This document shows, in pieces, positions 23,574-55,565 of a DNA stretch of 64,000 nucleotides. How positions within the stretch are numbered: position 1 is the first letter of the stretch; each line of letters begins with the position of its first letter. A model generated the notes under the pieces. The model did not search any database. It saw nothing but the letters and a program-made list of their open reading frames with translations, and had not been told where the DNA came from. A program made the position numbers and the translations under genes. This DNA is from Humidesulfovibrio sp. (GTDB lineage: Bacteria > Desulfobacterota > Desulfovibrionia > Desulfovibrionales > Desulfovibrionaceae): contig JARLHQ010000021.1 of the NCBI GenBank assembly GCA_031292175.1, positions 1 to 64,000 on the forward strand. Direction: 5' to 3'.

Positions 23574-23849
23574 ATGATGTTCTTTCCCAATCAGGGCAAG
23601 CCTTCTGGCGCAATGGAGCTTTTGTCCACCGCGGGGACCATTGGTCTTCAGCTGGTGGTTTCCACCTTCATCGGCCTGGCCATGGGGTACTTCCTCGACA
23701 AGTGGTTGGGGACAAGTCCGTGGCTGTTGGTGTTGTTTCTTCTTCTGGGCATTGTGGCTGGGTTCCGCGATGTCTTTCTGGAAGCCAAGCGCATCCAGAA
23801 AAAGGATGAGGAGGACGCCGGGACGGGTGGTCCTGGTCCGGGGAAGTAG
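23574..23849 (+). CDS. AtpZ/AtpI-type ATP synthase accessory membrane protein
   Basis: 91 residues with two membrane helices, about 20-42 (GLQLVVSTFIGLAMGYFLDKW) and 48-68 (WLLVLFLLLGIVAG). A charged tail with RIQKKDEEDAG follows. This is the small two-helix AtpZ-like protein that opens many F0 operons and helps c-ring assembly or ion supply. Two ATG codons (23574 and 23577) are adjacent; the first is used. It is followed by atpI and atpB. Confidence 0.8.
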   Translation: MMFFPNQGKPSGAMELLSTAGTIGLQLVVSTFIGLAMGYFLDKWLGTSPWLLVLFLLLGIVAGFRDVFLEAKRIQKKDEEDAGTGGPGPGK

Positions 23850-23885
23850 ACCGGGCCCATGCCGGGGCCGGGGTGACGAGGCTTC

Positions 23886-24329
23886 ATGCTGAAAACGCTT
23901 GTTCAGAGAATCGACGCCATGCTGTTCCGTCGCGGGTTCGCCCTGACGGAGGCGCGCAGGCTGATACGCAACCAGATCCTTCTGGCCGCCGGTTGCACGG
24001 CGATTGCGTGTCTGGTGACGGGGTTCGCCAATTGGGGGCTCTCGTTCGGTGCCGGCGCACTCATCATCAGCTTCAACTTCTGGTGGCTTTCCAAGGCCGC
24101 GCAGGAGCTGGTGCAGGTGAGGCAGGGCGCCATGTTTACGCTGCTGACGCTCTTTTACGGAAGATTGGCATTGACCGCGGTCGCCATCGCCGGGCTTGTC
24201 GCCTGGGCGGGGGCTTCGGTTTACGGGCTTTTGGCCGGGCTCTCCACCGTGTTGGCAAACGCCGCACTGTGGGGCGTCCTTCAGATCAGGCACAAGGTCC
24301 CCGTCACGGGGGATGGGAAGGAGGCTTAA
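23886..24329 (+). CDS. atpI: ATP synthase subunit I (AtpI family)
   Basis: 147 residues with four predicted membrane helices (about 30-50, 52-72, 85-108, 110-130), including [12 protein letters not shown] between helices. Its position ahead of atpB and its size fit AtpI, a chaperone for c-ring assembly. Four bases separate it from atpB, whose ribosome site overlaps its 3' end. Confidence 0.8.
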
Positions 24330-24333
24330 ACTC

Positions 24334-25020
24334 ATGGCTGCAGGACTTCCGGAACCGTTGATCTTCTCCGAGATCCTCGACCACTCGCTGGGTCTTCATC
24401 TGCCGCCGCACGTGTACTACATGTGGCTGGCGATGCTTATTCTTTTTGCTTGCTCCATGATGCTCCGCGGGCGTTTGCAGCTGGTGCCGGGCGGGATGCA
24501 GAACGTGTTCGAGACCGTCATTGGCGGCCTTGAAGAATTTACGGTGACCAACATCGGCGAAGAAGGCCGTCGTGTGTTCCCGTTCCTCTGCACGCTCTTC
24601 ATCTTCATCCTCGTGATGAACTACATTGGCCTCATTCCCGGCTGCGACGCCGCGACGGCCAACGTGAACACCAACGCCGCCATGGCTGTCTGCGTGTTCC
24701 TGTACTACAATTATATCGGCATCAAGAAATGGGGCTTCGGCTACATCAAACATTTCATGGGCCCCATGCCCGCGCTGGCTCCGCTCATGCTCATTCTGGA
24801 GACCGTGAGCCACATCGCCCGCCCCCTCTCGCTCACGCTCCGTCTTTTCGGCAACATCCGCGGCGAGGAAATCGTCCTGGTGCTGCTCTTCGTGCTGGCT
24901 CCGGTGCTGGGCACCCTGCCCATGTACTTCCTGTTCATCCTGGGCAAGACCATTCAGGCCTTCATCTTCTTCATGCTGACGATGATCTACCTGAAGGGCT
25001 CGCTGGAGCACGCGCACTAA
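24334..25020 (+). CDS. atpB: F0F1 ATP synthase subunit a
   Basis: 228 residues. The ATG at 24334 follows GGAAGGAGG. The essential Arg is in [15 protein letters not shown] near residue 170, facing the c ring. The last two helices ([21 protein letters not shown]) form the ion half-channels. Subunit a carries ions across the membrane to and from the c-ring glutamate. It is the third gene of the F0 operon. Confidence 0.96.
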
Positions 25021-25074
25021 ACCTGGGGAAATGGTCGTTTGACCACAACATCATACCTTTAGGAGTACATTGCT

Positions 25075-25395
25075 ATGCGTAAGTCTCTTCTGATGGCTCT
25101 GGCTATGGTTCTCTGCGCTTCCGCCGCTTTCGCTTCTGACGGCGCCGCCGTCGCCGCCGTGGGTCCCGTTGCCGCTTGGGCCACCGCCATGGGCATGGGC
25201 CTCGCCGCCGGCCTCTGCGGTATCGCTCAGGGCCTGGGCCTGAAGGCCGCCTGCGAAGGCACCGCCCGCAATCCCGAAGCCGGTGGCAAAATCACCGTTA
25301 CCCTGATCCTGGGCCTGGCCTTCATCGAGTCCCTGGCCATTTACGCCCTGGTCGTCAACCTGATCCTGCTTTTCGTGAAGCCCCTGGGCGCCTAG
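25075..25395 (+). CDS. atpE: F0F1 ATP synthase subunit c, with N-terminal signal-like extension
   Basis: 106 residues, about 25 longer than usual. Residues 1-20 ([10 protein letters not shown]... ASAAFA) look like a cleavable signal peptide. The two-helix hairpin follows, with loop ARNPEAGG and ion-binding Glu85 in AFIESLAIY. Gln52, Glu85, Ser86 and Tyr90 match the ligand set of the Ilyobacter sodium-binding c subunit (Q32, E65, S66, Y70) with identical 33-residue Gln-Glu spacing. The codon bias is strong, as expected for a multicopy subunit. It is followed by a terminator. Confidence 0.95.
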
Positions 25396-25415
25396 TTCAC
25401 GTTTCTTTCGGAATC

Positions 25416-25441
25416 AAGGAGGCCTGCGGGCCTCCTTTTTT
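25416..25441 (+). terminator. intrinsic terminator after atpE
   Basis: AGGAGGCC (25417-25424) pairs fully with GGCCTCCT (25429-25436) around TGCG, followed by at least five T to 25441. It separates the F0 genes from rex. Confidence 0.9.
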
Positions 25442-25450
25442 CCGGGAAAC

Positions 25451-25468
25451 CTGTTCAGAATTTCACAA
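25451..25468 (+). promoter_or_regulatory. candidate Rex operator upstream of rex
   Basis: CTGTTCA-GAAT-TTCACAA fits TTGTGAA-N4-TTCACAA with a perfect right half and four of seven in the left half. It lies 20 bases before the rex start, suggesting autoregulation. Confidence 0.45.
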
Positions 25469-25488
25469 ATCACCATCAGCGTTCTGGA

Positions 25489-26133
25489 ATGGCCGTGAAG
25501 AGCGAGCATATCCCCAAGGCCACCATCGCCCGACTGGCCACCTATATCCAGGTGCTGTCGGAATTTAAGCGCGAAGGAACCGATGTCGTGTCCTCCGAGC
25601 GCCTCGCTGAGGCCTGCTCGGTGAACTCATCGCAAATCCGAAAGGACCTTGCCTATTTTGGTGAGTTCGGCGTGCGCGGGGTCGGCTACTACGTCCAGGA
25701 CCTCATCAGCTCCATCAAACGTTCGCTCGGCATCGACCGCGCCTGGAACTGCGCCCTTGTGGGCGTGGGCAATCTGGGCCGGGCCCTTCTGCGCCACCGT
25801 GAATTCTCCCGCAAGGGCTTCGTCATCCGCGGCGCCTTCGACTGCGATCCGTACAAGATCGGCGAGGTTGTGGAAGGCATGGAGATCGTGTGCTCCCGCC
25901 AACTGCCCGCCAAGGTCAAGGAATTGGGCCTGGAGATCGGCGTCATCACGACCCCGCCGGAACGCGCGCAGCGCGCCGCCAACTACCTTATAGGCGCGGG
26001 CATCAAGGGCATCATCAACTTCGCCCCGGCGCGCATCGCGGTTCCGAAGCATATTCACCTGGAATATGTTGACTTTTTTCATTATTTTTACGCTGCGGCC
26101 TTCCACATCCGCTTCAACGAGCAGCGCGACTGA
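25489..26133 (+). CDS. rex: redox-sensing transcriptional repressor Rex
   Basis: 214 residues. The N-terminal winged helix (1-80) contains SSERLAEACSVNSSQIRKDLAYFGEFG, the recognition helix of Rex proteins. The Rossmann domain follows with LVGVGNLGRALL near residue 90. The C-terminal swapped helix ends VDFFHYFYAAAFHI. Rex binds DNA when NAD+ is high and releases it on NADH binding. In Desulfovibrio it is known to sit beside atp genes and to repress energy genes. Perfect half-sites occur before the F0 operon, rex itself and the F1 operon. Confidence 0.95.
   Translation: MAVKSEHIPKATIARLATYIQVLSEFKREGTDVVSSERLAEACSVNSSQIRKDLAYFGEFGVRGVGYYVQDLISSIKRSLGIDRAWNCALVGVGNLGRALLRHREFSRKGFVIRGAFDCDPYKIGEVVEGMEIVCSRQLPAKVKELGLEIGVITTPPERAQRAANYLIGAGIKGIINFAPARIAVPKHIHLEYVDFFHYFYAAAFHIRFNEQRD

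Positions 26134-53504: not shown

Positions 53505-55565
<2,061 letters not shown>

Follow-up and report, generated by a model that had tools for sequence, protein, structure and literature searches.

The atpE gene in the window (the whole stretch of 64,000 nucleotides that was analysed) very probably encodes an ordinary housekeeping c subunit, the rotor-ring protein, of the F-type ATP synthase of a sulfate reducer, in a ring that is coupled to protons, and the deciding point for this reading of the coupling ion is the leucine found at the position of Thr67 in the sodium ring of Ilyobacter. The initial annotation had described a "sodium-type ligand signature" in this protein, a title that does not hold, as the residues concerned are common in the rings of the phylum and are found in combination in one chloroplast ring (22vl_M). 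Its own caveat, that leucine in place of Thr67 might mean a proton-preferring ring, is supported, and in the same family all 78 main rings read have Leu67. As judged by alignment, the apparent Na+ ligand set is partial and non-diagnostic, and it is not peculiar to the window gene, which taken alone is nothing unusual.

Table 1. ATP synthase genes in the window and codons at the ligand positions of the c subunit
Feature	Position	Strand	Remarks
atpZ-like, ATPase gene 1	23574..23849	+	PF09527, 68.5 bits; TIGR02230, only 22.4 bits, below the cut-off of 46.7
atpI, ATP synthase I chain	23886..24329	+	PF03899, 41.7 bits
atpB, ATP synthase a subunit (stator half-channels)	24334..25020	+	PF00119, 184.5 bits; start codon inferred
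atpE, F-type ATP synthase c subunit	25075..25395	+	106 aa, ATG start; PF00137, 55.7 bits
Gln52 codon CAG	25228..25230	+	Ilyobacter Q32 position, by alignment
Glu85 codon GAG	25327..25329	+	Ilyobacter E65 position, by alignment
Ser86 codon TCC	25330..25332	+	Ilyobacter S66 position, by alignment
Leu87 codon CTG	25333..25335	+	Ilyobacter T67 position, by alignment
Tyr90 codon TAC	25342..25344	+	Ilyobacter Y70 position, by alignment
atpH (delta/OSCP, F1 part)	55036..55554	-	PF00213, 162.9 bits; sole match found in the genome

The atpE product belongs to PF00137, with a score (Table 1) well above the cut-off of 24 bits, the carboxylate Glu85 in place and atpB adjoining. It is the sole PF00137 match found in its own genome, which is 81% complete, so that absences in this genome alone are weak. 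With the model for N-type ATPase c subunits, TIGR03322, it scored 46.1 bits, below the cut-off of 130.85. The best match among named genomes came from a metagenome assembly of Desulfovibrio sp., with 96% identity over the hairpin. The N-terminus (25075-25140) resembles a signal peptide, as do those of many (uncounted) c subunits of relatives, and we infer that it is cleaved. On the + strand, the order of genes is atpZ-like, atpI, atpB, atpE and then rex (25489), with the Fo genes positioned directly 5' of rex (23574-26133). The F1 delta gene, atpH, is located 30 kb from the Fo genes on the opposite strand of the same window, and thus at least the delta gene of F1 is separate from the Fo genes. 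Between atpE and rex, positions 25451-25468 match a Rex-box-like pattern with three mismatches. The case for a Rex operator at this site is weak, since the window contains three pattern matches and as high a number came from 5 of 100 shuffles.

Codons and alignment confirmed the assignment of Gln52, Glu85, Ser86 and Tyr90 to Q32, E65, S66 and Y70 of Ilyobacter, whose numbering is used below for all rings. The residues expected of a Na+-type ring at four positions (Gln or Glu at 32, Glu65, Ser or Thr at 66 and Tyr70) are all found in the window ring (Q52, E85, S86 and Y90), but the polar residue at 67 that would hold the Na+-bound water is replaced by Leu87, which leaves the ring with four of the five Na+-site side chains. 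The set expected of chloroplast/cyanobacterial H+ rings, namely Gln32, Glu65, an aliphatic residue at 67 and Tyr70, is found in full. The 33-residue spacing from Gln to Glu, to which the initial annotation had also pointed, is real but uninformative: it was found in all 259 aligned c subunits (258 loci, not all independent, as pairs such as L192 with L063 and L194 with L084 probably represent a single record each, plus one Ilyobacter reference), whatever residue occupies column 32, and the four chloroplast/cyanobacterial rings also have Gln exactly 33 residues before Glu. The spacing was therefore rejected as evidence for sodium and is a property of the c-subunit fold.

Among solved rings, the residue at 67 is Thr in the Na+ hairpins 1yce, 3zk1 and 4bem A and Ser in the first hairpin of 4bem J, and it is Leu in all four chloroplast/cyanobacterial rings (4mjn, 3v3c, 2wie and 22vl_M); the second hairpin of 4bem_J, which is without the carboxylate, and other PDB hits were excluded from the comparison. 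The species assignments of the solved chains other than Ilyobacter are presumptive, and the 22vl_M sequence is presumably that of Chlamydomonas. The chain 22vl_M, from an enzyme named chloroplastic, carries all five residues of the window ring (Gln, Glu, Ser, Leu and Tyr). It is established that the ATP synthases of chloroplasts are driven by protons. The window sequence has its five best PDB matches among chains of the chloroplast/cyanobacterial kind, and its hairpin shares 51-54% identity with the four rings of this kind (63 positions) and 33-44% with the Na+ hairpins. The statement that in proton-type rings the Glu is usually followed by Ala or Gly agrees with three of these four rings, which have Ala, but the fourth has Ser, so the residue provides no test. 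Ser after Glu was rejected as a mark of sodium, being present in a chloroplast ring and, summed over types, in 84 of the 88 phylum loci described below.

Two published rules conflict on rings with this residue set (QESLY). The short rule of papers on acetogens, in the sections available, takes "Q...ES/T" as the mark of a Na+ ring (PMC4715464, PMC4320612, PMC7911925) and places the window ring in the Na+ class, whereas the rule of a polar residue at 67 places it in the H+ class. The latter derives from an alignment, available to us in part, in which known and predicted Na+ rotary ATPases are all polar at the Thr67 position and H+ enzymes are all aliphatic (Leu, Ile or Val), with some Na+ ligands persisting in H+ enzymes (Mulkidjanian, 2008; PMC2359735); this rule is partly circular, since predicted members were classed by their ligands. 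In the Fusobacterium ring, according to the sections available, Thr67 contacts the Na+-bound water (PMC3692424), and the proton-driven nature of the chloroplast enzymes is likewise stated in the available part of PMC8106487. An N-type ring of Burkholderia (Glu30/Glu61/Thr62/Met63/Tyr66) was predicted to use Na+ and was measured to be predominantly H+ selective, the labelling left being 40, 55 and 44% with 15 mM Na+, Li+ and Cs+, respectively, and 1% after a shift to pH 9 (PMC5376962, available sections). For the Ilyobacter ring, the same source reports that NaCl halts NCD-4 labelling immediately. For Desulfovibrio gigas, the available text contains the authors' statement, which is not a ring test, that F1Fo is powered by a gradient of protons (PMC4287179). 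In the available sections of the open-licence literature surveyed, we saw no ion measurement on a c ring of this phylum, and those of PMC4911364, PMC5165239 and PMC4103992 describe no experiment on the ion to which a c ring is coupled. Since so many of the phylum loci read have QESLY, a ring of this type could serve to test which motif rule to trust in genome annotation.

To place the window ring among its relatives, 99 genomes of the family (Desulfovibrionaceae) were searched, and 94 had a match; the best match was read for 78 of these 94 genomes, as were all 12 second matches. Glu65, Ser66, Leu67 and Tyr70 are each present in 78 of 78 housekeeping main rings, and the complete QESLY set of the window is found in 70 of them. 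One family match outside the 78 (G063:C148:3145-3456) contains an in-frame TGA, which may be an assembly error. At the residue encoded by 25216-25218, which precedes the Gln by four positions, 76 of the 78 family main rings have Cys and Ilyobacter has Pro. At the phylum level, 192 of 198 genomes had a match, and 88 loci were read, comprising the 28 best-scoring new loci and 60 picked by hand across family codes, from matches with E better than about 2e-13; this set contains scarcely any second rings from outside the family of the window, L092 duplicates the location of L083, and L092-L096 belong to the window's own family. These 88 loci included 57 with QESLY, 21 with MESLY, three with MESIY and two with MEALY, together with one each of IESLF, IETQY, QEALY, IESLY and LESVY. 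QESLY is thus the commonest type among the phylum loci read, and the pattern is ordinary. A further set of named genomes, assigned by title to Desulfovibrio, Geobacteraceae, Desulfuromonas, Nitrospirae and others, gave QESLY in 60, MESLY in 18, and IETQY and MESIY in one locus each of 80 kept out of 492 confirmed loci, with the reservation that one of the two search patterns requires ES[LT] and biases the set towards Ser66 and Leu or Thr at 67.

Position 32 is the variable one in the family main rings, with Gln in 70 of 78, Met in seven and Ile in one. On a tree built without column 32, the label Gln versus Met/Ile needs at least four changes, two of which are forced by starred branches, although the tree is weak, as it rests on a short alignment with few columns and a quick method. 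Replacement of Gln while Glu, Ser, Leu and Tyr are kept is hard to explain if Gln takes part in binding Na+ at a functional site. The Met/Ile32 state is, however, clustered on the tree (the shuffled mean is 7.8 changes, and none of 500 shuffles was as low as four), which indicates that changes of Gln were few and counts against the proton reading. The rings with Met or Ile at 32 that keep Glu-Ser-Leu-x-x-Tyr are L059, L060, L064, L083, L085, L086, L087 and L091. Two main rings that share one genus code (g34) have Ile32 (L087) and Gln32 (L050).

In addition to the main ring, 12 of the 99 family genomes encode a second c subunit (L032-L043), mostly N-type-like. Thr67 is present in 11 of these 12, Glu32 in nine and Gln32 in two; the exceptional second ring, L034, has Met32 and Leu67. 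Eight of the 12 were scanned with TIGR03322, of which six pass its cut-off, one falls just under it but over the cut-off of NF009998, and the remaining one, L034, falls under both. With Leu67 in 78 of 78 main rings and Thr67 in 11 of 12 second rings, the Thr67 and Leu67 sets are therefore found in different enzymes, with one exception.

Neither RnfD/NqrB nor OAD-beta was matched in 15 genomes of the window's genus, eight of them near-complete, in searches whose controls gave matches in 4 and 2 of 14, respectively. A membrane pyrophosphatase was found in one of the 15, as a partial match at a contig end (L260, G293:C154). Sodium pumps do exist in relatives, as RnfD/NqrB was matched in 47 of the 99 family genomes, among them those of nine of the 12 second rings. 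The Glu-Ser-Leu-Tyr residues of the main ring are identical in the 39 rings from genomes with a RnfD/NqrB match and the 39 from genomes without one, so the type of main ring is not tied to whether RnfD/NqrB is present. A link of Gln32 to Rnf found no support among the family main rings, with RnfD/NqrB in the genomes of 37 of 70 Gln rings versus two of eight non-Gln rings (Fisher p 0.26).

H+ is most likely the ion that the window ring binds and transports. We propose that Glu85 would carry a proton within the membrane and be locked through hydrogen bonding with Gln52 and Tyr90, with a geometry presumed to be that of the chloroplast/cyanobacterial rings, that Ser86 would add one polar neighbour of Glu85, and that Leu87 would occupy the place where Thr67 of Ilyobacter holds the Na+-bound water. 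The ring may nevertheless bind some Na+ at a high Na+/H+ ratio. We consider it unlikely that the ring is promiscuous, carrying H+ at low Na+ and partly Na+ where the Na+/H+ ratio is high, as in a saline, alkaline habitat. The partial ligand set would suit such behaviour, and according to the available sections of one study, Na+-driven rings such as that of Fusobacterium retain their selectivity for H+ and use Na+ owing to its large excess, the relative concentrations of Na+ and H+ helping to decide which is used (PMC3692424), so that a weaker Na+ site could matter. However, the lost water ligand and the bulky non-polar Phe83, Ile84 and Leu87 should raise H+ selectivity, and the invariance of Glu-Ser-Leu-Tyr with RnfD/NqrB presence also speaks against it. 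Similarly improbable, in our estimate, is the more general reading that Q-E-S-L-Y rings are facultative Na+/H+ rings in which Ser66 would coordinate Na+ well enough without Thr67; if this were true, some sulfate reducers could use a sodium gradient for ATP synthesis where salt and pH are high. A genuinely Na+-coupled ring like that of Ilyobacter, in which Gln52, Glu85, Ser86 and the backbone carbonyl of residue 83 would bind Na+ and the water would be held without the side chain of residue 87, is highly improbable, for although its Gln, Glu, Ser and Tyr all match Ilyobacter and the short rule calls it Na+, Leu replaces Thr67 here and throughout the family main rings, a chloroplast ring has the identical residue set, Gln was altered more than once with the rest kept, and the two pumps were unmatched in 15 genomes of the genus.

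Among known systems, housekeeping c subunits from the Desulfovibrionaceae and from further families in the phylum commonly have the residue set of the window ring, and no difference with a bearing on ion binding was seen. The chloroplast/cyanobacterial rings share Gln32, Phe63, Glu65, Leu67 and Tyr70 with it, and 22vl_M also Ser66, whereas the other three have Ala66 and the rings of this kind have Thr at 68, where the window ring has Ala. The Na+ ring of Ilyobacter tartaricus (1yce) shares Gln32, Glu65, Ser66, Tyr70 and the spacing of 33, but differs in having Val63, Ala64, Thr67 and Gly68 in place of Phe, Ile, Leu and Ala, with 43% identity over 63 positions. The N-type second rings of the family have Glu65, Ser66 and Tyr70 in common with the window ring and differ by Thr67 (11 of 12) and Glu32 (9 of 12) in place of Leu67 and Gln32. 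The N-type ring of Burkholderia is Na+-like except for the non-polar Met63 at the 67 position, and has Glu30 instead of Gln.
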